Positions 5,522-49,177 of a stretch of DNA of 64,000 nucleotides are shown in pieces (the first letter of the stretch is position 1; each line of letters begins with the position of its first letter). Source of the DNA: Sulfolobus sp. S-194. Its GTDB lineage: Archaea > Thermoproteota > Thermoprotei_A > Sulfolobales > Sulfolobaceae. The notes beneath the pieces are model-generated. The model was not told where the DNA came from. It saw only the letters and a list, made by a program, of their open reading frames with translations, and did no database searches. Where the stretch lies: assembly GCF_012222305.1 (NCBI RefSeq), contig NZ_CP035730.1, positions 248,001-312,000 of the forward strand, read 5' to 3'. A program made the translations under genes and the position numbers.

Positions 5522-6958
5522 TTAATTAGAGAAAATTTCGCTCCATTTCTCCATTACTTTTTTACTTAATTCTTCACTAGGTCTAACCTCCGTAGGGAAT
5601 TCGTTTCTAATTAGCCTACTAAATGGTTTTACTGCGTAGATTATTGCCCTAGATGAGGAATATTCCTTCAAGTTTTCTTTTCTTTCAGCCATTGGATCTA
5701 GTGGGGTACTGGTAACGTTTTTGATAACATCTATTGAAGTTGCAGGATCGGATCTAGTACACATGGCCCATACTACTTGGTTCAAATCCGAAGGATCTAT
5801 GTCATCATCTACTATAATTACATATCTTCCGCCATAAGCACCTAAGGGACTTGTGCTAACTAAATGCCCAATCATAGTTGCGTGTCCAGCAAAAGATTGC
5901 TTTATGGATATTACAATAAATGCTCTTGAAAAGCCGACTTCATGAGCCCAAACTCCTTTTACGTTAGGCACTCCGGTTCTTTCTAAAAAATCCCAAATCA
6001 TAGCAGATCTTATGGGGCATCTAAAATAAGAGTAATCATATGGCGGTATACTGGGTGCAGTACCTAATAATATTGGATCTTGCCTATAATAAACTCTCTT
6101 AACATCAATTACTGGACTTTTCATCCTTCCTCCAGCGTAATACCCCATAAACTCTCCAAAAGGTCCTTCATCAGTTAACTCACCAGTTATATACCCTTCT
6201 ACTGCTATTTCACTGTCAGCGGGAATAGGCAAACCAGTAACTTCACCTCTAAACACTCTGAATCTTTCTCCTATTACTGCTCCACTAAAATTATATTCAG
6301 AAACTCCTAAAGGTACTTCCATACCAGCAAATATTAAAAGAGACAATGGAGGAGCGAAGGAGATTGCTATTGGAGCTTTCTTACCTTTACTTAAATACTT
6401 CTCAATATGTAACCTACCGTGGTGACTAGCCTCTATAAATATTGCCAATTTATTTTTGTCAACTAGCATTACCCTATAAGTTCCTACATTAACCCAATTA
6501 GAGTCAGGGTCACTTGTTATTACTGCATCTGCTGTGCCTATATATCTCCCACCATCCATTTCATGCCATTTAGGTGCAGGAAATTTCAAAAGGTTAATAT
6601 TATCATCCTTATCTACATTTTCTAAAAAAGGTGCGTCAGAAACTTCAATTGGTTCATAGCTTTTGTATTCTTTATAAGCATAATTTAGTCTTTCCCTTAA
6701 CTTTAAGACTAGCTCGAGATTATTTAAGTTAGGAGAAAAACCTAAGGCTAAACTAACCCTCCTGGAATCTAAAAGTGTCCCAGTAAGAACCCTAAATCCT
6801 TTTGGATAACCAACTATCTCATCAAAGAGTAAAGTATATTTATTTTTCTTTGCGTTAAGGTCAGTAATTGCCCCAATTTCTAAATTCCAGTCAGCTCCTT
6901 TAATTTCCCTCAAAAGGTTTAATTTTCTAACCTCTTCAATAAACCTTCTAATATCCAT
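5522..6958 (-). CDS. UbiD-family decarboxylase
   Basis: A 478-residue member of the UbiD family, which uses prenylated FMN to decarboxylate or carboxylate aromatic and unsaturated acids reversibly. Recognisable segments are SNWVNVGTYRVMLVDKNK near residue 155, the GPFGEFMGYYAGG motif, and the C-terminal DIDPSDLNQVVWAMCTR region. Length is normal. The cofactor-making partner UbiX is not in the window. The gene is 16 nt downstream of a zinc alcohol dehydrogenase and completes an MFS-ADH-UbiD operon. An aromatic or vinylogous acid imported by the MFS protein is the simplest substrate guess. UbiD enzymes are often oxygen-sensitive, so the neighbouring Rieske oxygenase need not share its pathway. 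Confidence 0.92.
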   Translation of the reverse strand: MDIRRFIEEVRKLNLLREIKGADWNLEIGAITDLNAKKNKYTLLFDEIVGYPKGFRVLTGTLLDSRRVSLALGFSPNLNNLELVLKLRERLNYAYKEYKSYEPIEVSDAPFLENVDKDDNINLLKFPAPKWHEMDGGRYIGTADAVITSDPDSNWVNVGTYRVMLVDKNKLAIFIEASHHGRLHIEKYLSKGKKAPIAISFAPPLSLLIFAGMEVPLGVSEYNFSGAVIGERFRVFRGEVTGLPIPADSEIAVEGYITGELTDEGPFGEFMGYYAGGRMKSPVIDVKRVYYRQDPILLGTAPSIPPYDYSYFRCPIRSAMIWDFLERTGVPNVKGVWAHEVGFSRAFIVISIKQSFAGHATMIGHLVSTSPLGAYGGRYVIIVDDDIDPSDLNQVVWAMCTRSDPATSIDVIKNVTSTPLDPMAERKENLKEYSSSRAIIYAVKPFSRLIRNEFPTEVRPSEELSKKVMEKWSEIFSN

Positions 6959-6974
6959 GATATATTCTCCACAT

Positions 6975-8009
6975 TTAAGGTATTAATACTTGCCTTCCCG
7001 TTACTTTATTCGATTCTAAATTATCTAAAGCTTTATTAGCTTCTTCTAACGATAATTTAGTTGTAACAATTTTTATCTTTCCACTTTCAGCTAATTTTAT
7101 AATTTCCAGAAAATCTCTCCTATTACCGGTCAGAGTACCAATGAACTCCCAACCCATAGAGTGTAACTTTAACCCAGCTTCTTGTGGCAAACCTCCACCA
7201 AAAGTTCCAACTTTAATATATCTTCCCAATTTTGCTAACATTGTATAATAATTTTTTACAGTACTCTCAGAACCCACAAAATCTAATATAGCATCAACTC
7301 CTCTTCCCTCAGTTATCCTTAATATTTCTTGAAATAGACTTTCGTCTTTACCATTTATGACATAATTAGCCCCTAATTTTGACGCCAATTTTAGCCCTTC
7401 TTCGTTAATATCTATTGCTATTACAGTAGAACCATATAGAGCTTTAACTATTTGAACTCCAAAACTACCTAATCCACCTCCTGCGCCTATAATCATAACA
7501 TATTTAGATGGAGTTAAATTGGCTAATCTAGCGGCTCTATAAGCCGTAACTCCTGCACAAGCTAAAGGTGATGCATCCTCTACTGATAACTTATTTACTT
7601 TATATACGTAATTAAAATTAGAAACTACATATTCAGCATACCCCCCATTAGTACTTATTCCTAACCATGTAGGAAAATCACAATATTGCTCCTCTCCTAT
7701 CTTACAATAGTAACAATTTCCTTCTCCTTGCCAAGGATTTACTATAACCTTGTCTCCTTTTGCAAATCCTATAACCTCATCTCCAATATCTTCTATTATT
7801 CCCGCTATTTCATGTCCTGGAATAAAAGGTAGTTGAGGTGGATTTATAGATACTCTTTTATATATTATACCACTTCTTACTGAGACGTCAGTATGGCATA
7901 CACCCGCACTTTTTACTCTGATGAGAACTTGATTTTGCTTAAGCTTAGGAACACTAACATCTTCTAATTTCAATGATTTTCCAAATTCCTTAATCAACAT
8001 AGCTTTCAT
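6975..8009 (-). CDS. Zinc-dependent alcohol dehydrogenase (medium-chain family)
   Basis: A 344-residue medium-chain dehydrogenase. The catalytic zinc site is in GVCHTDVSVRSG and PGHEIAG. The structural zinc loop is EGNCYYCKIGEEQYC. The NAD(P)-binding motif is GAGGGLGSFGVQIVKA. It resembles the paralogue at 51298-52338 and the S. solfataricus ADH. It overlaps the upstream MFS gene by 4 nt, so the two are translationally coupled, and it is followed 16 nt later by the UbiD-family gene. It could oxidise an alcohol side chain before decarboxylation, or reduce an aldehyde afterwards. Confidence 0.93.
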   Translation of the reverse strand: MKAMLIKEFGKSLKLEDVSVPKLKQNQVLIRVKSAGVCHTDVSVRSGIIYKRVSINPPQLPFIPGHEIAGIIEDIGDEVIGFAKGDKVIVNPWQGEGNCYYCKIGEEQYCDFPTWLGISTNGGYAEYVVSNFNYVYKVNKLSVEDASPLACAGVTAYRAARLANLTPSKYVMIIGAGGGLGSFGVQIVKALYGSTVIAIDINEEGLKLASKLGANYVINGKDESLFQEILRITEGRGVDAILDFVGSESTVKNYYTMLAKLGRYIKVGTFGGGLPQEAGLKLHSMGWEFIGTLTGNRRDFLEIIKLAESGKIKIVTTKLSLEEANKALDNLESNKVTGRQVLIP

Positions 8010-9373
8010 ATAGCTCCCTTTTCAGCTGATTCTATTTCCTTTAAAATATTACCCTTTGTATCTTTACTTATGACTGAGGATATTAATAGGATTACCCCTA
8101 CAATTAACAGAGCATAAAACATAACTAATGGAAACTTAGATGCACCAATAGACGCTAAGACGAGGCTTATAATGGTTGGAGACGCTCCTCCTATAGCAAA
8201 GCCTGAATTCCAGGTAAACGCAACACCGGTTCCTCTAATGTTAGTAGGATAAGCCTCATTTAGATATGTCATTAACATACCTCCTCCGAAATCGCTTAGT
8301 AATGATATTAAAAACGTAACCAAAATTATATTGTTCAGAGAACTTATACTTAAAGATCCTAAATATAAATATAGAGGGGAAATAGCAATTACTATTACTG
8401 CTCCTAATATCGACATTAATTTTCTTCCTATATGCTGAGAAATTTCACCTCCTAATGCCGGTCCTATTATCATACCAATTGAAGCTATTATCATCGTAAT
8501 TCCTATTTCAGCCTTTGTCAAGCCATTAATTTTACTTAGAAATGTTGGAAATAAACCTTGTGTTAAATAGTACATTAATGCCCATCCTATAGTAAGTACT
8601 AAAGCAATACCGAATGTTCTTCTATATTTAGAGAAAAGTTCCCTAACCGGTGATCTTATAGTTTTTCCTCTCTCCTTAACTTTCTGCCAAGCATCTGACT
8701 CAGGAACTAAATAGTTAACGAAACCTAATACTGCCAATGGTAGAAGCCCACCAAAAAACATTACTCTCCAACCCCATACTAAATAGGATGATCCTGGGAA
8801 TAACAGAGCAGTCATATAAAACCACGCTGAAGCGATTAAATATGCCGCTCCAGCAGCAGAGAAACCTATTCCTCCTACCCAACCTCTATGTCTTTCTGGT
8901 ACGGATTCTGGCCCTATAGTATGGCTTCCTGCAGTTACGCCTCCAACAAAGAATCCCTCCGCTAATCTTACTAGGATTATTAATATTGGAGCAAAAATTC
9001 CTACTACTGCATAAGTTGGTAATGCACCTTGAAGACTCGCAGTAATAACCAGTCCTATTATACCGTAGAGTATTGCCTTCTTTCTTCCTAATTTGTCCGA
9101 AATATTATTTCCGAAATACAAAGCTCCTACTGGCCTCATAAGAAATGATGTTAAAAAGGTCGCATAAGTAGCAGCTATTGCAAGAAACACCACCTTTGAT
9201 GGGAAGAACAGTTCTGCTATGTACGGAGTAACAAGTAGGATACTAAAGAGATCGTACAAATCGAAAGTCCACGCTAGAAACGTAGCCAAAATCCATTTAG
9301 CATGTTTACTAGTTAATTTATCATCTGGTTTCATCTTTATATTGACCCCTACATCATAATTTATTATTTTCAC
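8006..9373 (-). CDS. MFS transporter (metabolite:H+ symporter type)
   Basis: About 455 residues with 12 predicted membrane segments. The inter-helix loop between segments 2 and 3 carries GNNISDKLGRKKAILYG, the MFS signature, and EGFFVGGVTAGSHTIGPESVPERHRG is typical of the aromatic-acid/metabolite symporters. The frame opens with GTG at 9373; an in-frame ATG at 9334 is a possible alternative, because two minus-strand TATA-like elements (9372-9379 and 9402-9409) would favour different starts. It heads the MFS-ADH-UbiD operon and faces the Rieske oxygenase genes. It probably imports the organic acid used by this cluster. Confidence 0.9.
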   Translation of the reverse strand: MKIINYDVGVNIKMKPDDKLTSKHAKWILATFLAWTFDLYDLFSILLVTPYIAELFFPSKVVFLAIAATYATFLTSFLMRPVGALYFGNNISDKLGRKKAILYGIIGLVITASLQGALPTYAVVGIFAPILIILVRLAEGFFVGGVTAGSHTIGPESVPERHRGWVGGIGFSAAGAAYLIASAWFYMTALLFPGSSYLVWGWRVMFFGGLLPLAVLGFVNYLVPESDAWQKVKERGKTIRSPVRELFSKYRRTFGIALVLTIGWALMYYLTQGLFPTFLSKINGLTKAEIGITMIIASIGMIIGPALGGEISQHIGRKLMSILGAVIVIAISPLYLYLGSLSISSLNNIILVTFLISLLSDFGGGMLMTYLNEAYPTNIRGTGVAFTWNSGFAIGGASPTIISLVLASIGASKFPLVMFYALLIVGVILLISSVISKDTKGNILKEIESAEKGAI

Positions 9374-9682
9374 TTATAAATGTTACTTGAATAAAACACA
9401 TTATAAAAATAATAAATTTAATCATTAATATTTTTCTAATCAATGCACACATCAAATTGGTTTGAATTCAAGGTAGGTCAAAGCCAGCACATTACTTATA
9501 ATATAACTACTTTTTGAATCAATCCAACTATGAGTTCTCCATTAATTTGCAAATGTAAATCAATCACCTTTTAGCTTAATCACATCACATAGTATCTATA
9601 TCCGAGTACTTAAAGTTCCCTAGCTATATAATAATGTTTTTAGGGAAAAATTTATAAGTTGTCTTAAAAAATTAATTATGTT
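9374..9682. other. 309-bp divergent intergenic region
   Basis: It lies between the MFS-ADH-UbiD operon and the Rieske genes. The plus-strand TATA TTTATA at 9651-9656 is about 29 bp before the oxygenase ATG, and minus-strand TATA-like elements are at 9372-9379 and 9402-9409. Nothing else stands out; no copy of the 4715-4747 palindrome is visible. Confidence 0.6.
9651..9658 (+). promoter_or_regulatory. TATA box of the Rieske oxygenase operon
   Basis: The sequence TTTATAAG is preceded by an A-rich stretch and lies about 29 bp upstream of the ATG at 9683, consistent with a leaderless transcript. Confidence 0.6.
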
Positions 9683-15045: not shown

Positions 15046-15600
15046 CTAGGTTAATATAACTCCTACTAATAAGAAGATTAATATGGGTATTTCAATCGTT
15101 AATTCAATATTATATAAATATAATTTTCTTGGTACTGAGTTTTTACAGAAATAAAATGCTATCTCTCTAGTAATAAAATTTGCTAAAAAGAAGATAATGA
15201 AACCTAAATTAATTAAATAGTTTGCTACAATCATTTCTATCGGCGACATTTCTATAATTGAATTTGCTAGTGACCATTTTATTACATTAGACAACAATGG
15301 TTTCATACTACCACTGTAATGTAAAAAGTTACTACTGCTACACACAATTTTCATCATAATACTTGCTAATATAAGGTTTAGTAGTATTAATTTAGATATA
15401 GGGTCATGAGGTATTATAACTAATAACGATATAATTATGCCTATCAGATAATAACATATCGTGATAACTAGGGGTAACAAGTACGATTCTAATCTCTTAT
15501 TAAACGAATAAAAATAGGAAGAAAAAAGTAATCCCTTATGTGGGTTTATGCCTTCGACAAAGCCAAGGCTAAGGATAGCAATAAGAGTCAGAGGAAGCAT
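15046..15600 (-). CDS. Polytopic membrane protein of unknown function
   Basis: A 184-residue hydrophobic protein with five or six predicted membrane segments. Near the N-terminus it has GFVEGINPHKGLLFSSYF, which recalls the small-residue-plus-NP motif at the start of several transporter families (LysE, DsbD, TauE types), but I cannot place it in one. Its ATG lies inside the SBP56 gene: the two overlap by 32 nt in different frames. It is therefore almost certainly co-transcribed with, and translationally linked to, SBP56. It could export or import a sulfur compound or a metal needed by that enzyme (inference). Confidence 0.7.
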   Translation of the reverse strand: MLPLTLIAILSLGFVEGINPHKGLLFSSYFYSFNKRLESYLLPLVITICYYLIGIIISLLVIIPHDPISKLILLNLILASIMMKIVCSSSNFLHYSGSMKPLLSNVIKWSLANSIIEMSPIEMIVANYLINLGFIIFFLANFITREIAFYFCKNSVPRKLYLYNIELTIEIPILIFLLVGVILT

Positions 15601-16957
15601 CTCCTCCCCTTAACCTAACTTGATGCGACCTAGCCTCTCCAAAATCCACGAAGAACTCCTTATCCACATCTAGACCTCCATCTGGATTAGCATTTAGTTT
15701 AACCATCCATCCCTTTAAGCCCTCTGGATAGAATTGATTATCCCAAGTACTATATAGGGAATTGGTAACGTAAACTCTTTTTCCGTCCCTACTGATTTCA
15801 ATCATCTGAGGAGCTCCGGTTAATTTATACCCAGCAGGATGATTAGCTCTATGGAAGATTCCTCCTAGTTTCACTTTGCTGGTTAATACGGGCTTGAAAG
15901 GATTGCTAATATCGTACTGTCTTACCTCACCTATTCCCCATAAGCTCAAATAGAGGAACTTATCGTCTAAGCTTATGTCAATATCAGTTACTAGAGGAGG
16001 AACCGCCTTGAAAGGCTTTAGTATTTCTGGCAAATCACCCTCTAACGGTTCTGCGGGTATTTCAATTACTTTCTCTGCATTCCATTTACCATCTTCGTAG
16101 TACCATAACCAGATTGAACTGCTCAGATCCTTTAGGCTTACTACCATATTTATGAATCCCATGAGTTTAGTTGGGTCATGTAGGGGTCTAAGCTCTAACG
16201 CCATCCTATTCTCTTCACCTAATGTTAAGCTGTGTAATCTCTTTCTCTTCCTCAAATCCCAGAAGTGGATCCTATTCCCATACTTATCCTTTAGATGTTC
16301 TAGCTTTAGACCGTCTTCAATAGTATTTGGCACTGCCCATTCACTACTCACTAAAACTTCGTTAGGTAAGTTCCACCAAAAGTCGTACGCTAAGTACTGA
16401 TCTCCTCTGTCTATCTCCCACTTGCCTAAAGGTTCAAAACTGTAATGGTCTAACATTAAAATTCCTCCTGGACCCTCACCGTTTTCATTGCCAAAAGCAC
16501 TTATGTAGATACCATCTGGCCCACAATGGACTGTGTGGAGCCTAGAATATCCGCTGACTTTTTTGATTTCCTCTGGTTCTATTACCTTAACTATGCTAGG
16601 TTCTCTGGGATTGGGTTTGGTATCTATAATGTATATTCTTGATGACCTTAAGGTTGGGACTATCAGAAATCTTCTTTCAACGTTAGGTTTGCCATTTGGA
16701 CATAATGCTGAACTGCAAGCGTTCCAGCCAAAGTGGTGTAATTCGTCGTTAATGTATGGTAATTCTATTTTGTGGACTATTTTTGAGTAAGTCTCAGACT
16801 TTGGGTTTACATCAACTACTGCTATGAAATCTGGCCTATTTATTCCAGTTCCAGTGTATAAGCAAGCAACATAAGCTAAGTCCTCTGGAGGTGATTTCAT
16901 GGCCATCTTTGGAGATGGATAAAACGTTGGATCTCTTTTGAACGGAACCGCAGTCAT
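15569..16957 (-). CDS. Selenium-binding protein 56 family (methanethiol-oxidase-like)
   Basis: A 462-residue member of the SBP56 family, close in length to human SELENBP1 (472). Shared segments include ELHHFGWNACSSAL with the conserved cysteine, RLHTVHCGPDG, YDFWWNLPNEVLVSSEWA, TSLYSTWDNQFYP and the C-terminal FFVDFGEARSHQVRLRGGD. Bacterial and human relatives oxidise methanethiol to formaldehyde, sulfide and peroxide, using copper held by histidines. Activity in archaea is not established as far as I know. No selenocysteine is implied. A TATA-like sequence (TTATATAA) lies about 24 bp before the ATG. The downstream membrane protein overlaps its 3' end. Confidence 0.92.
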   Translation of the reverse strand: MTAVPFKRDPTFYPSPKMAMKSPPEDLAYVACLYTGTGINRPDFIAVVDVNPKSETYSKIVHKIELPYINDELHHFGWNACSSALCPNGKPNVERRFLIVPTLRSSRIYIIDTKPNPREPSIVKVIEPEEIKKVSGYSRLHTVHCGPDGIYISAFGNENGEGPGGILMLDHYSFEPLGKWEIDRGDQYLAYDFWWNLPNEVLVSSEWAVPNTIEDGLKLEHLKDKYGNRIHFWDLRKRKRLHSLTLGEENRMALELRPLHDPTKLMGFINMVVSLKDLSSSIWLWYYEDGKWNAEKVIEIPAEPLEGDLPEILKPFKAVPPLVTDIDISLDDKFLYLSLWGIGEVRQYDISNPFKPVLTSKVKLGGIFHRANHPAGYKLTGAPQMIEISRDGKRVYVTNSLYSTWDNQFYPEGLKGWMVKLNANPDGGLDVDKEFFVDFGEARSHQVRLRGGDASSDSYCYP

Positions 16958-17616: not shown

Positions 17617-18027
17617 ATGGATTTACAAAATGTATTGGAAAATAGTGATAGGGTATTCAAGTTTTTAGAAGTTAAGATCTTAGAGATAAAGCCAGGTTAT
17701 TCTAAGATCCAAATTCCTTATAAGGAGGAGTTCTGTAGAAGAGGTAATGTGCTAAACGGTGGGATAATAATGACTGCTATCGATTTTGCAGGAGGTCTAG
17801 CTACTTTATCTGTGAATGATGGGATAGACCAAGTTACTCAAGAGTTAAAGATAAACTTTCTTGAGCCTATGTATAAGGGACCGTTTATTGTCGAAGGTAA
17901 GGTGGTAAGAAAAGGAAGGACTGCTGTTGTGGTGCAAATAGAGTTTAGGGATAGTGAAGGAAAATTGGGTGCTATAGCTTTAGGCACTTGGTATATAATA
18001 AGGGATAGGATAGTTAAAAAGGAATGA
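17617..18027 (+). CDS. PaaI-family hotdog thioesterase
   Basis: A 136-residue single hotdog domain. [24 protein letters not shown] near residues 42-65 is the PaaI motif: the catalytic acidic residue is in AIDFA and a glycine pair replaces the usual H-G-G. Members hydrolyse acyl-CoA esters, often aromatic ones, to recycle CoA when a pathway stalls. It ends 12 nt from the convergent acyl-CoA ligase at 18040-19572, a likely functional partner. A second family member is at 25134-25535. Confidence 0.9.
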
Positions 18028-18039
18028 GAATAATAGAAC

Positions 18040-19572
18040 TTACATGTTTTTAACTAATTCCCTAATCACTTTCTTATCTAATTTCCCAGTACTAGTTTTG
18101 GGTAATTCGTTAATGAAGAGTATCTTATCTGGTATCCACCACTTAGGAAACCTATTTAAGGAGATAAGGTACTCTTTGATCTCGTTTTCTGTAATTTTAC
18201 CCTCATAATCTTTTTTAGGTACAACAAGGGCTACAGGTCTTTCTCCCCATTTTTCATCCTTAATACCTACAACTGCTGCTTCGAAGACCTTATAATAACT
18301 CATTATAGCATTCTCAAGGTCTATGCTAGAAATCCATTCACCGCCACTCTTTATTAAATCTTTAGCCCTATCTACTATTTTTATATTACCATATTTATCA
18401 ATTGTAACTATATCCCCCGTCCTTAACCAAATTCTGTTGCCAATAGTTCTGAACGTTTCTTTGGTTTTCTCCGCTTCTTTATAATACTCCTTTGCAACCC
18501 ATGCGCCGCTAACCCATAGTTCTCCAACGCTGCTACCATCCCATGGAAGTTCTTTTTCTTGGTCTAAATTAATTAGCTTCATCTCAATTCCAGGTAAAGG
18601 AATTCCTTGACTGCTTATTTTTTCTTGGTCTTGATTGACTGTTGTTATTGCTTCTGTCTCTGTCATTCCCCATGCGTGGTATAATCTAATACCCATTTTG
18701 TTAAGTTTCTCTGCTACAATTTTTGGTGGTTCTGCACCACCTGTAACTACGGTCTTTAGTGACGAAATATCATAATTCTCTTTCTCTATAAAATTTAGAA
18801 AATCTATCCATATTGTTGGAGCTCCTACTGCAATGGTAACTTTTTCCTTTTCTATTAATTCTGCCAAATCCTTAGACCTGGGCCTAGGGCCAGGTAATAC
18901 TAGTTTTGCACCTGTCATTAATGCTGAGAATGGTAAATCCCAACCATTTATATGAAACATGGGTACAACTACTAGGATAGAGTCGTTTCTTGATATTCCT
19001 ACTGCATCTTTAGCTAATAGGGTTAATGAGTGAATGTAAATTGATCTGTGAGTATACATTATCCCTTTAGGTTTTCCGGTTGTTCCAGAAGTGTAACATA
19101 TAACTGCTTCATCCTTTTCATCTAGAGGAGGAAAATCCTCAATTGGTTTTTGCATGTTTATTGCTTTATCGAAGTTTTCATCTAGATAAAATATTCCACT
19201 AAGAGACGTTTTTAATTTATCTATTGCGAACTCTGGCGAGACGAAAGCAAATTTATCCCCTGCGTGGTTGATTACGTATTCAATCTCGTTAGGGTGGAAT
19301 CTTACGTTTATTGTATGTAGAACATAACCCATGTTTGTTGTGGCGAAATAGAGTTCCAAATGTCTTCTGGTATTCCATTCAATCGAGGCAACTTTATCCC
19401 CTTTTTCTAGTTTTAAGCTCTTTAAAAAAGAGGATAATTTTCTTACTCTTAAGGAAAAATCCCTATAACTCATTTTTTCAATTTTGTCAGACCTAGAAAC
19501 TATCTCACTTTCTGGGTATAGTTTTTCAACTCTCCAAAAAATGTGTTGGATTGTTAAAGGGAAATCATACAT
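18040..19572 (-). CDS. Acyl-CoA ligase, AMP-forming (AlkK/medium-chain type)
   Basis: A 510-residue ANL ligase. It has the P-loop CYTSGTTGKPKGIMYTHRS near residue 160, VVPMFHINGWDLP (typical of the AlkK-like subgroup), the AWGMTETEA motif, RTGDIVTIDKYG and the C-terminal LPKTSTGKLDKK with the catalytic lysine. It is related to the ligases at 38760 and 56971 (split). A TATA-like ATATTTAAA lies about 28 bp before the ATG. It is 50 nt downstream of the HpaB-family gene and probably shares its transcript, so it may activate the acid processed by that protein. Substrate not determined. Confidence 0.92.
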   Translation of the reverse strand: MYDFPLTIQHIFWRVEKLYPESEIVSRSDKIEKMSYRDFSLRVRKLSSFLKSLKLEKGDKVASIEWNTRRHLELYFATTNMGYVLHTINVRFHPNEIEYVINHAGDKFAFVSPEFAIDKLKTSLSGIFYLDENFDKAINMQKPIEDFPPLDEKDEAVICYTSGTTGKPKGIMYTHRSIYIHSLTLLAKDAVGISRNDSILVVVPMFHINGWDLPFSALMTGAKLVLPGPRPRSKDLAELIEKEKVTIAVGAPTIWIDFLNFIEKENYDISSLKTVVTGGAEPPKIVAEKLNKMGIRLYHAWGMTETEAITTVNQDQEKISSQGIPLPGIEMKLINLDQEKELPWDGSSVGELWVSGAWVAKEYYKEAEKTKETFRTIGNRIWLRTGDIVTIDKYGNIKIVDRAKDLIKSGGEWISSIDLENAIMSYYKVFEAAVVGIKDEKWGERPVALVVPKKDYEGKITENEIKEYLISLNRFPKWWIPDKILFINELPKTSTGKLDKKVIRELVKNM

Positions 19573-19622: not shown

Positions 19623-21020
19623 TTAACTTGAAATTATTTTCTTTACAAGTTCCTTACTTTCATTAAAATCGTAATTTCTAAATAGTTCGATTTTACTTGC
19701 CTCAATTGAACCCTCAGCATGTATCATAGTTGTAAGCCAATACCCTACTAAAGAGCTACTTCCAGCTATCTCCTTAGCAAATTTCAGAATTTCGATCCTT
19801 TCTTTTCCGTCAATCGCACCTCTTAAATACTTACTTATAACCTCTCCTTCACTACTCCTAAGATCTTCTTCTGAGGGTAAGGTTGAAATTATACCACCAG
19901 CTATATCAATTAAATCCTTAACTACTTCATGGAAGTGTGTATTAGTGTATAATTTACCTATATTAGTGAAGATGTAGTTGGGGATTGCAATATCTTCGTC
20001 AATCTCTGGGTAAACAGATGAGGCTATGGCTGACATTCTTAGTATTTCTTTGTAAAGTATCATATCTATTATATCATCTCTTACATGCTTCTCATTAGCT
20101 ATTCCGTTTGCTTCTGCTGAGAGGATTGCTGAACCTAAATAAAGATTTGCCATAGCAGCCCTATAGGAAATTGCAGTAAACCTATGATATGTTGCAAATA
20201 ACCTAGCTAGAGTCCCCGCAAATTCATATTCTCTAAATAGGAATACTCTATCCCATGGTACAAAGACATTGTCAAAGATTGTCAACGTTTCTAACTCATA
20301 ATCTTTTACACTTAAGACTGAGGAGGAATTCCCTTCAATCTCATCTATTGGTCTTACAATCATTTTTAATCCGGGTGTATTTGCAGGAACGGCAAAGGCT
20401 ATAGAGTAATCTTTATCCTCTTCTCCCATAGCCCTAGTTGGTATAACTATAATCTCGTCAGCTACAGCTGCTTGAGTTGTATGAGCTTTTGCACCCCTAA
20501 CTATAATACCGTCATTTCTCACATCAACTACTCTAACATATAGATCTGGGTCTGACTGTTTTGAGGGTCTTTTTGACCTATCACCCTTAACGTCAGTCTG
20601 TGCTGTTGCTAATGTTAAATCGTTTTTTATAACATACTCGTAGTATTTCATAAGTTTGCTGTAATAGTCTTTACCGTATTTTTTATCTAATTTTTTAGTT
20701 GTTATCATTAAGGAAAAGAGAGCATCACTACCAATAGCTTGTGAAATATTAAATATACCATTGCAGAAAATAGTCGTATCATACACCAGCTTATGTCTAT
20801 CCAGTAAGTCTTGAGATGTTCTGGGAATTTTGAAATATTTACTTATTTTACCGTATTGAGGATCGTCATAAAATCTGTTGGGATATTCAAATAATTTTGA
20901 TGCATGGTGTGCGGATATTTTTAACACTGGGTGTTCAGTAATATCTGAAACGTATTTACCTCGATAGATTACTTTCCTTCCATCATTTAGTGACTTTAAG
21001 AAATCTTCCTTAGTTCTCAT
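19623..21020 (-). CDS. HpaB-family flavoprotein, similar to 4-hydroxybutyryl-CoA dehydratase but lacking its Fe-S ligands
   Basis: The start chosen is the ATG at 21020 (465 residues), 26 bp from the minus-strand TATA at 21042-21050; an in-frame ATG at 21035 lies too close to the box. It matches 4-hydroxyphenylacetate 3-hydroxylase and 4-hydroxybutyryl-CoA dehydratase over its full length, for example KGDRSKRPSKQSDPDLYVRV and DGIIVRGAKAHTTQ. Against the Clostridium dehydratase, recalled from memory, the two cysteines before the G-x-D-A motif are replaced (here QAIGSDA) and the third, after the conserved YHR, is also missing; only that histidine remains. So it probably binds FAD but no 4Fe-4S cluster. 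It is most likely a hydroxylase, or a repurposed dehydratase. Confidence 0.85.
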   Translation of the reverse strand: MRTKEDFLKSLNDGRKVIYRGKYVSDITEHPVLKISAHHASKLFEYPNRFYDDPQYGKISKYFKIPRTSQDLLDRHKLVYDTTIFCNGIFNISQAIGSDALFSLMITTKKLDKKYGKDYYSKLMKYYEYVIKNDLTLATAQTDVKGDRSKRPSKQSDPDLYVRVVDVRNDGIIVRGAKAHTTQAAVADEIIVIPTRAMGEEDKDYSIAFAVPANTPGLKMIVRPIDEIEGNSSSVLSVKDYELETLTIFDNVFVPWDRVFLFREYEFAGTLARLFATYHRFTAISYRAAMANLYLGSAILSAEANGIANEKHVRDDIIDMILYKEILRMSAIASSVYPEIDEDIAIPNYIFTNIGKLYTNTHFHEVVKDLIDIAGGIISTLPSEEDLRSSEGEVISKYLRGAIDGKERIEILKFAKEIAGSSSLVGYWLTTMIHAEGSIEASKIELFRNYDFNESKELVKKIISS

Positions 21021-21351
21021 ATTTGATAATTTCATGAGGAGTTATATAAATCTACATAGTTAGGTTATAAATTCCCGTTAAGATGAGCTGTGGATAAGAA
21101 TTGATTATGAATCCTATCAGTTAGGGAGCTTTTTTATCTGGCTAACTAAAATACTAAATACTTTCGAGTATTGCATTTTTACCCATTTTCAATGTTCTTT
21201 CAGTCTTGATATGGATTTTGTAATTTACTTTCTTAAGAATCTTAAGTATCTTTATAAATAAGCAGAATTTATCTCAGTTATTTACTTACTTAAATTAAGA
21301 ACATATTAATTGATAAAAGCTTTTTTAAACCCTATTATAATACTTTTACTT
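21021..21351. promoter_or_regulatory. Divergent promoter region, HpaB-family gene and MaoC gene
   Basis: The minus-strand TATA at 21042-21050 gives a leaderless start at 21020. On the plus strand TTTTTTAAAC (21321-21330) lies about 26 bp before the ATG at 21352, and a stronger TTTATAAAT at 21251-21259 would give a leader of about 70 nt. TTCTTAAGAATCTTAAG at 21230-21246 contains overlapping palindromes and may be a binding site. No coding potential is seen. Confidence 0.5.
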
Positions 21352-21849
21352 ATGTTAGAGAGTTCAGAAGGTCCTTACTTTGAAGATTTTAAGATAGGGC
21401 AAAGGTTTAAAAGTAAGATAGGAAGGACATTAACAGATGTTGATAATATTTGGTTCACTCTCTTAACTAATAACAGTAATCAGATACATTTTAATAAGGA
21501 TTATACTGAGAAATACTTTCAAGGAGAACCCTTTAAGGGAAGGTTAGTAGTAAATGGCTTTTTAACTTTAGCAATAGTTGCAGGAATGCTTGTTGAACAA
21601 ACTAGCCAAAACGGTTTCATGTTAGGGATAGAAAATGTGAAATTTTTGAACCCAGTATTTTCTGGTGACACAATTTACGCTGAGGCTGAGGTCATTAAGG
21701 TTAGGGAATCTAAGAGTAGGCCTGGTTTTGGAATAGTTAAAATAAGGACGTGGGGATATAATCAGAAAGGAGAAAAGGTTGTAGAATTCGATAGAGTATT
21801 CATGGTCAGAAAGAGAGGAGCGAGCTGGACTGGTGAAAAGAAAGAATGA
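21352..21849 (+). CDS. MaoC-type hotdog dehydratase
   Basis: The start chosen is the ATG at 21352 (165 residues); a TTG at 21310 would add a hydrophobic tail that homologues lack. It starts with GPYFEDFKIGQRF, the usual MaoC opening. NSNQIHFNKDYTEK carries the hydratase-2-type motif with the aspartate changed to asparagine (NSNQIH where D-x-N-x-x-H is usual), and FKGRLVVNGFLTLAIVAGM follows. It should act on an acyl- or mesaconyl-type CoA ester, though the loss of the aspartate makes hydratase activity less certain. The CoA-transferase follows 39 nt later on the same strand. Confidence 0.85.
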   Translation: MLESSEGPYFEDFKIGQRFKSKIGRTLTDVDNIWFTLLTNNSNQIHFNKDYTEKYFQGEPFKGRLVVNGFLTLAIVAGMLVEQTSQNGFMLGIENVKFLNPVFSGDTIYAEAEVIKVRESKSRPGFGIVKIRTWGYNQKGEKVVEFDRVFMVRKRGASWTGEKKE

Positions 21850-21888: not shown

Positions 21889-22998
21889 ATGAATAGGGTC
21901 CTTGAGTTGGGGAGTAATATCTCAGCACCTCTAATTGGTGAAATATTAGCCGATTTAGGATTTGAGGTAATAAAGGTTGAGCCTCCTCCCTATGGTGATG
22001 ATAGGAGGAGAATTAAACCAGAGATTAATGGGGTCAGTGTTTATTTTGCCAGTACGAATAGGGGGAAGAAGAGTGTTACAATTAACCTTAAGACAAGTGA
22101 GGGTTACGAAATTTTCAAAAAGTTGGTAAAATCTGCTAGGATATTAATTACTAATTATAGACCCACAGCTCTTAAAAGGCTAAGAATAGATTACGAGACT
22201 TTAAAAGAGATTAACCACAACTTAATATACTGTTCAATAACAGGTTTTGGACCAGAGGAGGCTGATAAGCCTGCTTATGATGCAACAATATTAGCCTTGA
22301 GCGGCCTAATGGATATGACTGGGGAAGAAAAAGGACCTCCCGCTAAATTTGCAACCTCAATTTCGGATATATTGACTGCCCTAATGGGTACTATACTTAT
22401 CTTATCTGCGTTAAATAGAGGTGAATCAAGCTTCATTAACGTGCCAATGATTTATACTCAATTTTACTTAATGCTCGAAGATGCTTATATGTACTTAAAC
22501 GCCGGAATAATACCTAAGAGGATAGGTTCTGCACATAGGTATTTAGTTCCTTACCAAGCGTTTAAGACAGTTGACGGTTATATTTTCGTGGCAATTTTCA
22601 CTGATGAACAATATAAAAAATTGTGTAAAGCTCTAAGGAGAGAAGATCTAGAGAAATTTGATACTAATCAAAAGAGACTTGAAAACAGAGAGTATATAGT
22701 AAGTGAACTACAAAAGATATTTGGGAATAATACTAGAGAATATTGGGTAAAGGTGTTAAGTGAAGCTGACGTACCGGTAGCACCAATACTTAACTTAGCT
22801 GAAGCATTTCAAAGATATGGCAATAAATTGGTTTATGAGGTAAATGGTATGAAATATATTATGTTTCCTTTTAATAAAAAGGAGACCAAAGCCCCAAGAT
22901 TAGGTGAACATACTAGAGAGATTCTACTTGAATTAGGATATGGTAAAGACGAGATAGATAATTTAATTAAAAAAGGAGTAATAATGGAAACTATATGA
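21889..22998 (+). CDS. CoA-transferase family III (CaiB/BaiF)
   Basis: A 369-residue family III CoA-transferase. It begins with RVLELGSNISAPLIGEILADLGFEVIKVEPP, includes NRGKKSVTINLKT and has the catalytic-aspartate region YDATILALSGLMDMTGEEKGPP near residue 130-150. It moves CoA between two organic acids without ATP. It is 39 nt downstream of the MaoC gene, a pairing often seen in methylaspartate/mesaconate or citramalate-type pathways, where the transferase makes the CoA ester that the MaoC protein hydrates. A 447-bp gap follows. Confidence 0.92.
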   Translation: MNRVLELGSNISAPLIGEILADLGFEVIKVEPPPYGDDRRRIKPEINGVSVYFASTNRGKKSVTINLKTSEGYEIFKKLVKSARILITNYRPTALKRLRIDYETLKEINHNLIYCSITGFGPEEADKPAYDATILALSGLMDMTGEEKGPPAKFATSISDILTALMGTILILSALNRGESSFINVPMIYTQFYLMLEDAYMYLNAGIIPKRIGSAHRYLVPYQAFKTVDGYIFVAIFTDEQYKKLCKALRREDLEKFDTNQKRLENREYIVSELQKIFGNNTREYWVKVLSEADVPVAPILNLAEAFQRYGNKLVYEVNGMKYIMFPFNKKETKAPRLGEHTREILLELGYGKDEIDNLIKKGVIMETI

Positions 22999-26940: not shown

Positions 26941-27726
26941 TTATTCTTCATAGACGCTCTCAAAGTATTTGTTAGCTAATGGTGTAAGAGACTCATAGAT
27001 GTCTTTAAATAATTTGTACGCTTCATACCCTATCCAATTATTGGGTAAGAGTTCTTGTGGTAATCCAGGGTCTATGTGAAGGAATTTTCTATACTCATGA
27101 AGTATTGTTATCTTATTTACGAAAGCTTCAGCAGGAGTTAGCTTATCGATTTTATCTAAAAGTTTTACCCACTTACTTATGAACTCATTATACTTTAACT
27201 CTATTTCGCTTAAATTCCAGCACTTCCTTATTATGATCTGCGGGTCTTGTGGGAAATGGGCTATGAATAAGTAAACCTTTCCTCCATCCTTCCAATATTT
27301 CTCTACCATCTCATTTACCACATCTTCTAAAGGATTAGGGGAAACCCATGTTGATGAGGCTAAGGCTCCAAAACCTAACCACTTTAACTCTCTTCTTATT
27401 TTATTCCTTAACGCCTTATTATCCTCGCTGAAATTATACACTACTACCCTCCATTTCCCGTCCCAATGTCCGAACCTCCACTCCTTAACTCTCTTTATTG
27501 CAGTTTCGAACTTTAACAGCGTCTCCTGAGAAAATGTATAACTACCTCTATTTACACTAGTTATTAATCCTTCACGTTTTAATCTATGTAACGCAGTTCT
27601 GATTGCACTATTAGTAAAGCCAAATGGCTCAACTAACCTTACTAGACTTCTAGCTCTTATTGCACCATTCTTCTTACTCAAATTATAGTCTCCCAGAATC
27701 GTAAAAATCAACGTCTTTAATTTCAT
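26941..27726 (-). CDS. PaaX-family transcriptional regulator
   Basis: A 261-residue protein with the full PaaX layout. The N-terminal winged helix is LKTLIFTILGDYNL...LVRLVEPFGFTNSAIRTALHRLKREGLI, followed by WDGKWRVVVYNFSEDNKALRNKIRRELKWLGFG, the PaaX central domain. The C-terminal domain contains FHLHR-like EYRKFLHIDPGLPQELLPNNWIG. In bacteria PaaX represses phenylacetate genes and is released by phenylacetyl-CoA. Here it heads an operon with an acyl-CoA ligase and a thioesterase, so an acyl-CoA made by that ligase is the likely effector (inference). No phenylacetyl-CoA epoxidase genes are in the window. Confidence 0.92.
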   Translation of the reverse strand: MKLKTLIFTILGDYNLSKKNGAIRARSLVRLVEPFGFTNSAIRTALHRLKREGLITSVNRGSYTFSQETLLKFETAIKRVKEWRFGHWDGKWRVVVYNFSEDNKALRNKIRRELKWLGFGALASSTWVSPNPLEDVVNEMVEKYWKDGGKVYLFIAHFPQDPQIIIRKCWNLSEIELKYNEFISKWVKLLDKIDKLTPAEAFVNKITILHEYRKFLHIDPGLPQELLPNNWIGYEAYKLFKDIYESLTPLANKYFESVYEE

Positions 27727-27809: not shown

Positions 27810-28901
27810 TTAATATCCTCTACATGCTATAAATACTGGAGTAATGAATTCTTCTATGGAAGCACCTATAATTTCGTATCCATTTTTCACTAGCTTTAAA
27901 ACTCTATTTTTAGCCACTTCAAAATCATCACATGTTAACCCTATTAGTTCCTTAACTATATCCTCATCTAAATCCGGAGGGACTAATCCGAAGTCACCCG
28001 TAATCATTACATCTTTAATTCTATTGCTATCTAACGCTAATGAAGCTTGGACAAGCTTTCTGTACTTCTTCTGGGCAAACGTATATTCATAACCTCTGTT
28101 CTTACTCATAAATTTTCCTGTAGATCTTCTAAAGATGAAATCCTCTGATTTTAATATATTTAGATATTTTCTCCAAACTTTCTCCTCTTCATCAGATAAT
28201 TCTTCCGTTTCTACCTTTGCATTAAATTCCTTACTTACGGCCTTTACTAAAGCTTCTCTAAAGTCTCCTAGTTTTGGGGTCAAGTTTCCATCTATTTCTA
28301 TTGCCGCAAAATACTCTTCTGGTTTTTTAATCGCCTTATCTGCGAATTTCTCAGGAGGAATATTAAGGATCTTGAAGGGTAATTCTGGGTCGGGTTTCCA
28401 TAAGTTCGTGAAGCCATTGAAAAATACTACTTCTCTTTTATCGTTTAATATACTAACTCCAGTTCCACACAACTTTTTTCCTTTTACCCTTATATCGTTA
28501 GGACTAACGTACTCAGCGTTTATAACTCCAAGACTTTTTACTACATCAAGAAACACTTTACCCACTAAAATGTCGTAAGCTTCTGCGGAGTTCTTGAAGA
28601 CCTTTTGTGGAAAAATTATAGCCCATCCTCCGGTAATCTTATCCATAAAGATATTACCCATTCCTAGTTTCCATCTTCTAACTAATTCCACGTTATATTT
28701 CATAACGTTATCTAACTTAACCTCTCTGTCCACATCCTGGTAGTAGCCTAAATAAGAGAAAGATCTACTGAATCCTTCCATTACTATCAGTGTAGGAGGC
28801 ATTTCATTTAATTCACCTATAGAATATGCATATGAGAGTATTGAGGCTAGGTTAAAAATTTGGGGGTCTGTCTCCTCGAAGTACAACAATCTAATATTCA
28901 T
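27810..28901 (-). CDS. LplA-like ligase (biotin/lipoate ligase fold) with C-terminal accessory domain
   Basis: A 363-residue protein, leaderless by its TATA (about 29 bp upstream). The N-terminal ~240 residues have the biotinyl/lipoyl ligase fold, with VRVKGKKLCGTGVSI carrying the conserved lysine. The usual RR-x-SGGG-x-VYHD motif is degenerate (RRWKLGMGNIFMDKITGGW). The C-terminal part, with YRKLVQASLALDSNRIKDVMITGDFG, matches the lipoate-ligase accessory domain. A paralogue at 47873-48970 keeps the glycine-rich motif. Substrate is uncertain: this copy may have changed specificity or lost adenylation. No lipoyl-acceptor protein is encoded in the window. Confidence 0.8.
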   Translation of the reverse strand: MNIRLLYFEETDPQIFNLASILSYAYSIGELNEMPPTLIVMEGFSRSFSYLGYYQDVDREVKLDNVMKYNVELVRRWKLGMGNIFMDKITGGWAIIFPQKVFKNSAEAYDILVGKVFLDVVKSLGVINAEYVSPNDIRVKGKKLCGTGVSILNDKREVVFFNGFTNLWKPDPELPFKILNIPPEKFADKAIKKPEEYFAAIEIDGNLTPKLGDFREALVKAVSKEFNAKVETEELSDEEEKVWRKYLNILKSEDFIFRRSTGKFMSKNRGYEYTFAQKKYRKLVQASLALDSNRIKDVMITGDFGLVPPDLDEDIVKELIGLTCDDFEVAKNRVLKLVKNGYEIIGASIEEFITPVFIACRGY

Positions 28902-47872: not shown

Positions 47873-48970
47873 CTATTTTGATTTAGCGTCTTCTATTGCG
47901 ATTTTTATCACTGTTAAAATGTCCTCTTGAGTTACCATTGGTATTTCCCATCCCTTCCTAGAATATAATTCAGATATTTTTTTACTAATTTCTTCTAAAT
48001 TGTTTATCTCAATTCCCTTTAAGCTATTCTCAAAATCAAATAAGTATTGCGTAGGACTACAGTAAAAATCTCCGCTAATCATAATATCCTTAATAACCTT
48101 TTTATCAGTTAATAAGTGAACAACAAGTAGCTTTCTAGCCTTATATCTTGCGAACCCTAAAACGTGATTTGGTGGCATATTTGCAAACCTCTTACCACTG
48201 GATCTTAAGTATAAATGTTCCTCAGAGGAGGCAATTTTTCTATACTCCTCTCTGATCTTTTCAGCTTCATCTGACAGTTCATGCTCTTCAAAATCTAACC
48301 TTAAGGTCTCTCCGAAGCTACTCACAAAGGCATTGTAAACTTCTTCCATTGATGGCTTATGACCAGTTTCCTCTTCAACTGAGGTTACGTAATCTTGAGG
48401 GCTCATGGTACTCTTATCCTTAAACTTCTCTGGAGGGATTCTCAAAACTTTAACCATCTCTTCCACGTTTAACTTGCCTATTCCTATTATCATATTTAGG
48501 ACTAATGTGTTACCTAGTGTAGTGAATCCGAAGCCAGTTATTTTCTTATAACTTTTAGGAGAACCAACTCTAACATCTCCTATATGGTCATACCAGGCTC
48601 CCTTAACCCCTAATTTATAGTATGCGTGAGCAGCAGCTGAACCTATTTGACAGAATGCTTTGTCCATGTTAGGAAAGAAATCTGAAGGCATTGCCATATA
48701 TAGTGCCATACTTGAATTTTTATCACTATATATTGTACCTCCTCCCACGCCTAATCTCCTTACAACCTGAATATCCCTTCTCTGAGCCTCTTGCAAATTT
48801 ACTTCAGTATCTAAGTCCTGAAAATATCCTAAACTTACACCGTTAACTTTGCTGCCTACAACAGCTATTATAGGAACGTTTAATCTTCTAGACTCCCCAA
48901 CTAATGAAGCTGGAATTGCTACGCTATCTAGGAGATCCCCGTTTTTAATTAATATACTCTTTCCTTTCAT
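47873..48970 (-). CDS. LplA-like lipoate ligase with C-terminal accessory domain
   Basis: The start chosen is the ATG at 48970 (365 residues), about 31 bp from the minus-strand TATA at 48997-49004; a longer frame to 49051 would add 27 basic residues. It has RRLGVGGGTIYSDKN, the conserved lipoate-ligase motif, and SYKKITGFGFTTLGN with the catalytic lysine. The C-terminal KARKLLVVHLLTDKKVIKD followed by IMISGDFYCSP matches the accessory domain (Lip_prot_lig_C). It is the better conserved of two paralogues (other at 27810). It probably lipoylates or otherwise modifies a carrier protein that is not encoded in the window. Confidence 0.82.
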   Translation of the reverse strand: MKGKSILIKNGDLLDSVAIPASLVGESRRLNVPIIAVVGSKVNGVSLGYFQDLDTEVNLQEAQRRDIQVVRRLGVGGGTIYSDKNSSMALYMAMPSDFFPNMDKAFCQIGSAAAHAYYKLGVKGAWYDHIGDVRVGSPKSYKKITGFGFTTLGNTLVLNMIIGIGKLNVEEMVKVLRIPPEKFKDKSTMSPQDYVTSVEEETGHKPSMEEVYNAFVSSFGETLRLDFEEHELSDEAEKIREEYRKIASSEEHLYLRSSGKRFANMPPNHVLGFARYKARKLLVVHLLTDKKVIKDIMISGDFYCSPTQYLFDFENSLKGIEINNLEEISKKISELYSRKGWEIPMVTQEDILTVIKIAIEDAKSK

Positions 48971-49177
48971 ATTAAATAATATCTTGTTAAATTTCCTTAT
49001 AAAAACTTTCTTTAGATACTTTCCTTGAAAAGTAGAGGTTAGACTATACAACCTAAATTAGATAAAATATTAATATATTGGCGATTAAAACCTTTGCTAT
49101 TAAATAAAGTATTCATTATAAAATGTTTCAAATATGAGTGTAATGATTAAAAATGAAATATCATATAAAAAACCTAA

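Follow-up and report, generated by a model that had tools for sequence, protein, structure and literature searches.

The gene at 19623-21020 of the window (the whole stretch of 64,000 nucleotides analysed here) encodes a protein of the superfamily which contains the HpaB oxygenases and 4-hydroxybutyryl-CoA dehydratase (4HBD), but without the cysteine ligands of the [4Fe-4S] cluster. It belongs to a subfamily, hereafter Cys-less, which is best explained as ancient and as distinct from both the HpaB oxygenases and the true [4Fe-4S] 4HBDs. Our reading, which we hold to be about evenly balanced between right and wrong, is that its product is a cluster-free FAD enzyme, an acyl-CoA oxidoreductase or isomerase yielding an alpha,beta-unsaturated acyl-CoA. 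Its role is best read as one in the degradation of carboxylic acids. The gene and its neighbours are the following:

19623..21020, minus strand: Cys-less putative flavoprotein of the HpaB/4HBD superfamily, 465 aa, with HpaB_N and HpaB domains (Pfam, phmmer, alignment, AlphaFold2 model)
18040..19572, minus strand: AMP-forming acyl-CoA ligase, 50 nt downstream of the Cys-less gene (Pfam, neighbourhoods)
17617..18027, plus strand: 4HBT/PaaI-type thioesterase, conserved beside the ligase in congeners (profiles, neighbourhoods)
21310..21849, plus strand: MaoC-type (R)-enoyl-CoA hydratase, closest in NCBIfam to RipB/Ich, below the cut-off (profiles, co-occurrence)
21889..22998, plus strand: class III (CaiB-type) CoA-transferase (profiles, co-occurrence)

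The host genome (2.79 Mb, a single contig) is that of a member of the Sulfolobales, with relatives in the Sulfolobaceae. The open reading frame is intact and starts at an ATG at 21020. An in-frame ATG is also present upstream at 21035 and would give a 470-aa version; the orthologues start with the same MRTKEDF/MRSKEDY, matching the ATG at 21020, and a TATA-like TTTATATAA starts 30 nt ahead of the latter. A previous sequence-only reading of the window had noticed long segments shared with 4HBD. Both motifs, KGDRSKRPSKQSDPDL and GIIVRGAKAHTTQ, are indeed found in the 465-aa protein and the alignment with 4HBD runs from end to end: with phmmer, residues 3-462 are aligned with 1U8V, the 4HBD of Clostridium (E 6e-73), and 6VJR, the 4HBD of Nitrosopumilus, follows at E 3e-69, the HpaB structures being well behind by sequence.

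We read the ligand positions from a MAFFT alignment against 1U8V. Cys99 of 4HBD faces either I89 or N91 (there is a two-residue indel at this place), Cys103 faces A95 and Cys299 faces Y286, while the ligand and base His292 is kept as H279 and Glu257 is kept as E244. Met149 is replaced by Q141, Tyr296 by A283, Glu455 by T431 and Ala460 by E436; these four we take to be active-site residues of 4HBD. One can notice that the active-site positions change together (Met149 to Gln, Tyr296 to Ala, Cys299 to Tyr and Ala460 to Glu, with Glu455 lost). The principal codons are:

20748..20756, minus strand: I89-N91, opposite Cys99 of 4HBD, no Cys (alignment)
20736..20738, minus strand: A95, opposite Cys103 of 4HBD (alignment)
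20598..20600, minus strand: Q141, opposite Met149 of 4HBD, invariant in the Cys-less family (alignment, scan loci)
20289..20291, minus strand: E244, equivalent to Glu257 of 4HBD, kept (alignment)
20184..20186, minus strand: H279, equivalent to the cluster ligand and base His292, kept (alignment)
20163..20165, minus strand: Y286, opposite Cys299 of 4HBD, an invariant Tyr in the family (alignment, scan loci)
19713..19715, minus strand: E436, opposite Ala460 of 4HBD, the invariant Glu of an HAEGS motif (alignment, scan loci)

Hence the earlier statement that all three cluster cysteines are absent and that only the histidine of a YHR motif is left is borne out, and careful alignment revealed no cysteine at an equivalent position in this protein or in its intact relatives. 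The single cysteine of the protein, C86, lies a few residues off the ligand site. We rejected it as a ligand displaced by a shift of the alignment, because it is not conserved (F, G, S or A elsewhere in the family) and because C103 and C299 are left without counterpart. As there are no cluster ligands, the known radical mechanism of the dehydratase is unavailable and another reaction is likely, which agrees with the previous argument that the dehydratase needs its cluster and that this protein must do something else. E436 could be the new catalytic acid/base.

Scanning 85,000 species genomes yielded 401 relatives, the best 80 of which were kept; two of the 80 are frameshifted and were left out. 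The three cysteines are absent from all 78 intact genes among these best 80 of 401, in archaea and in many bacteria, and the close orthologues likewise lack them. Among the hosts are members of the Sulfolobales, Vulcanisaeta, Pyrobaculum, Thermoplasmata, Nitrososphaeria and Acidilobaceae for archaea, and of Poribacteria, Latescibacterota, Tectomicrobia, Chloroflexota and Acidobacteriota for bacteria. Three Rhodococcus plasmids also carry a Cys-less gene; the plasmid genes of Bradyrhizobium, Cetobacterium and Sphingomonas, which are poorer matches, are ordinary four-ligand 4HBDs, and no relative of the Cys-less gene was found on viral contigs. The pattern is not due to chance, being common to every intact member from independent genomes. 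The family has a signature of its own, HRF[TS]A-x-[SA]-Y with E436 invariant and Gln at the position of Met149, and its new invariant set is H279-R280-A283-Y286 together with E436. The split is clean: C/C/H/C with M149, Y296 and A460 on one side versus x/(A or E)/H/Y with Q141, A283 and E436 on the other. A separate observation concerns a four-ligand 4HBD relative (504-1979 of L057, genome G085), which reads HRFSYAGC, has V at position 455 and G at position 460 and is basal in the Cys-bearing clade; it is possibly an intermediate form.

When the protein is compared with those of three congeners, dN/dS is 0.04-0.06; this means that the gene is in use and under strong purifying selection. Given this ratio, and given that the close orthologues and the 78 intact relatives all lack the cysteines, the gene is not a decayed copy, and we discarded the reading of it as a pseudogene on the grounds of dN/dS and conservation. 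That the protein might be a vestigial or non-catalytic paralogue, a pseudo-enzyme, is suggested by the loss of the known catalytic residues and by the copy of one relative (9386-10800 of L056, genome G010), which is split across two frames and has probably decayed. Against this stand the strong purifying selection, the new set of active-site residues, invariant in archaea as well as in bacteria, and the conservation of the genomic partners, and we consider a pseudo-enzyme highly improbable.

We then turn to the place of the protein within the superfamily. In a tree of 70 rows, HpaB and Cys-bearing 4HBD form separate clades, each with 100/100 support, and the protein joins neither. The AU test rejects its placement with HpaB (p 0.0005) as well as with Cys-bearing 4HBD (p 8e-55). 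A monophyletic Cys-less set agrees with the data (p 0.56, AU), being neither shown nor rejected; the rooting of the tree decides whether the cluster is to be read as gained or as lost. An AlphaFold2 model built from a 43-row alignment has a pLDDT of 94.6 and a pTM of 0.92. When this model is searched with Foldseek, 6VJR and 1U8V come first (TM 0.93), HpaB next (about 0.9) and the acyl-CoA dehydrogenases (ACADs) far behind (about 0.5).

The HpaB matches at a TM of about 0.9, and the superfamily fold which they reflect, lead to a second explanation: the protein would be a reduced-flavin monooxygenase hydroxylating acyl-CoA or aryl-CoA, with FADH2 supplied by a diffusible reductase acting at another place in the cell. 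In HpaB, residues R100, Y104 and H142 matter for substrate binding and for the hydroperoxyflavin (PMC10816480). In our protein they correspond to I96, A100 and T139, and across the Cys-less family to I/V, A/C and V/T/L, the triad being absent from all members; the HpaB paralogue of the host, in contrast, has it complete. The NCBIfam model HpaB-1 scores 194.6 bits, below its cut-off of 480.2. The host genome has a single PF01613 flavin reductase, about 1 kb from this HpaB paralogue at C1:957515, and no flavin reductase was found near the archaeal Cys-less loci checked. In bacteria, a flavin-reductase-like gene is directly behind the Cys-less gene at three loci (L130:3570-4112, L151:9498-9989 and L158:9506-9988), which belong to one clade made of Entotheonella/Tectomicrobia and relatives; on this account the Cys-less enzyme may have an oxygenase role on CoA thioesters. 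The earlier reading proposed to look for a flavin reductase partner elsewhere in the genome; the only such gene of the host is the one beside the HpaB paralogue, and an adjacent reductase occurs in one bacterial sub-clade only. The scan hosts include aerobic lineages, which would suit a monooxygenase, but members also occur in the lineages of Caldisphaera and Vulcanisaeta, which are anaerobic or microaerobic. On the whole we consider a monooxygenase rather unlikely. Membership of the HpaB hydroxylases proper we excluded by the triad, the tree and the placement of the reductase. The earlier suggestion of an HpaB-like flavin-only hydroxylation finds no support on the same three counts, and clustering within characterised HpaB enzymes with a reductase gene, which would have made the protein ordinary, was not found.

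The gene context is that of acyl-CoA metabolism. The 50-nt gap to the ligase and the divergent MaoC and CoA-transferase genes are as the sequence-only reading had described them, and its suggestion of a chemistry on acyl-CoA fits them. Adjacency to the ligase is kept across the genus and in Metallosphaera yellowstonensis, where a stretch of 6 kb brings the Cys-less gene together with a MaoC gene (80% identical) and a canonical 4HBD. Since the window is dense in acyl-CoA genes, however, the ligase is in itself weak evidence: the segment 2582-61779 is a region of acyl-CoA catabolism, with eight AMP-forming ligase genes identified, two thiolases, an acyl-CoA dehydrogenase, a fused crotonase/3-hydroxyacyl-CoA dehydrogenase and MFS transporters. 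Two further observations were made in the window. A protein of the SBP56 family (selenium-binding or methanethiol-oxidase-like, 15569-16957) is conserved beside the cluster in congeners, and two proteins resembling lipoyl ligases (LplA-B_cat), both of unusual length, are encoded at 27810-28901 and 47873-49051, one of their genes adjoining a PaaX-type regulator (26941-27726).

Acyl-CoA enzymes are found within 4.5 kb at 29 of 34 archaeal loci versus 3 of 20 random regions, and still at 15 of 20 archaeal loci when one locus per genus is retained (p 3e-4); with the same seeds, the figure for the bacterial loci is only 9 of 28. Among 20 genomes of the Sulfolobaceae and of sister genera, orthologues of MaoC and CaiB occur in 10 of the 11 which have the gene versus none of the 9 which do not (p 1e-4, a value which ignores shared ancestry). 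In these same 20 genomes, no significant association with the Cys-less gene is seen for the HpaB paralogue (p 0.17). In bacteria, a Rhodococcus opacus plasmid carries in a row ADH, ALDH, the Cys-less gene, CaiB, ligase and biotin carboxylase, and in a Bacillota MAG the Cys-less gene is ahead of a methylmalonyl-CoA mutase and biotin carboxylase pair.

An order of acid activation, flavoenzyme, and hydration (MaoC) or carboxylation agrees with an alpha,beta-unsaturated acyl-CoA as the product of the flavoenzyme. An acyl-CoA supplied by the adjacent ligase or CoA-transferase would be taken up by the Cys-less protein, which would bind FAD; its C2 could be deprotonated, with assistance from the flavin, by H279 or E436, the two candidate bases. 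Then, either a hydride would pass to FAD, in which case the enzyme would be a dehydrogenase, or C4 would be reprotonated, in which case it would perform a delta3-delta2 shift without removal of water. The latter shift is also catalysed by 4HBD and amounts to half of its reaction without the dehydration. Once the cluster is taken away, hydride transfer and this shift are the two parts left of the chemistry known in the superfamily. The alpha,beta-unsaturated acyl-CoA would go on to the MaoC hydratase or, in bacteria, to a biotin carboxylase or crotonase. True acyl-CoA dehydrogenases are often in the same clusters (13 of 34 archaeal loci) and may already take care of plain desaturation. ETF genes were looked for within 4.5 kb of the Cys-less loci and turned up only near L096; they exist in the host genome, unlinked to the Cys-less gene.

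Nitrosocaldus, a genus of autotrophic ammonia oxidisers, deserves separate mention. At locus L120, the Cys-less gene (7995-9437) is preceded, at a distance of about 90 nt, by a canonical four-ligand 4HBD (6378-7904), and at L117, L118, L119 and L121 the Cys-less gene is likewise preceded by a second superfamily member. Such a pairing may point to a connection with 4-hydroxybutyryl/crotonyl-CoA metabolism. A canonical 4HBD adjoins the Cys-less gene in M. yellowstonensis and, it appears, in all the Nitrosocaldus loci seen, and the equivalents of H292 and E257 are kept; both facts would suit a protein which still dehydrates a 4-hydroxyacyl-CoA, or which assists such a dehydratase, using another metal or doing without the cluster altogether. 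But three of the four cluster ligands are gone together with Y296 and E455, and the host has a separate full-ligand 4HBD elsewhere in its genome. A 'type 2' copy in Sulfolobales has reportedly been noted earlier as lacking the cluster ligands. In genome G025, the Cys-less and the canonical genes lie where Msed_1220 and Msed_1321 should, and we presume from gene order that the Cys-less one, at 1,193,660-1,195,030, is most likely Msed_1220 of Metallosphaera sedula. In a review table, both Msed_1220 and Msed_1321 are given as 4HBD candidates of this species; for Msed_1220 the activity is marked as not determined and the expression as not regulated under autotrophy, and the later assignment keeps only Msed_1321 (PMC7078158). 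This again speaks against a dehydratase, which we judge very unlikely. Thus the Cys-less family has been seen before and is uncharacterised in the literature searched.

We put forward more tentatively, at somewhat less than an even chance, the joint proposition that the 4HBD superfamily has a large branch without the cluster, present in hundreds of archaeal and bacterial genomes and so far only mis-filed under 4HBD or HpaB, whose members carry out an acyl-CoA reaction of their own in a remodelled active site (Tyr for a cluster Cys, Glu for Ala460). If this is true, it would show how an enzyme with radical Fe-S/flavin chemistry and one working with flavin alone were converted one into the other on a single scaffold. 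If the Cys-less enzyme does act on acyl-CoA with no cluster, its comparison with 4HBD would show directly which part of the radical reaction needs the cluster. There is also a practical side. The gene of 4HBD, abfD, is a marker of the 3HP/4HB and DC/4HB carbon-fixation cycles. Surveys of Nitrososphaeria and of other archaea use it as a marker of autotrophy (PMC10833072, PMC10640624, PMC10547907). Cys-less genes annotated as 4HBD or HpaB can give false autotrophy calls; checking residues C99/C103/C299 versus Y286/E436 would sort the two kinds of genes.

Finally, we compare the protein with the known systems. With 4HBD (1U8V, 6VJR) it shares full-length homology at 30-36% identity, the best fold match, the TDxKGDR and GAKAHxT segments and the equivalents of His292 and Glu257; it differs in that C99, C103, C299, Y296, E455, M149 and A460 are all replaced, that two residues are inserted at the first Cys motif and that it lies outside the Cys-bearing clade. 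With HpaB (2YYG, 6QYI, 9LFT) it has in common the HpaB_N and HpaB Pfam domains and the overall fold, but identity in fold alignments is 20-25%, the R100/Y104/H142 triad is absent, it lies outside the HpaB clade, no reductase is linked to it in archaea and the host has its own pair of HpaB and reductase. The relation to the ACAD superfamily is a distant one of fold (TM about 0.5), with a weak match to Acyl-CoA_dh_M (25.8 bits, below the Pfam cut-off of 33.3); a Glu base and an acyl-CoA substrate would plausibly be common to both, but by sequence the protein is not an ACAD, its fold is HpaB/4HBD-like over the whole length, and seven true ACADs are encoded separately in the host genome. As for Msed_1220, which the literature groups with 4HBD, it is presumably a Cys-less orthologue of our protein.
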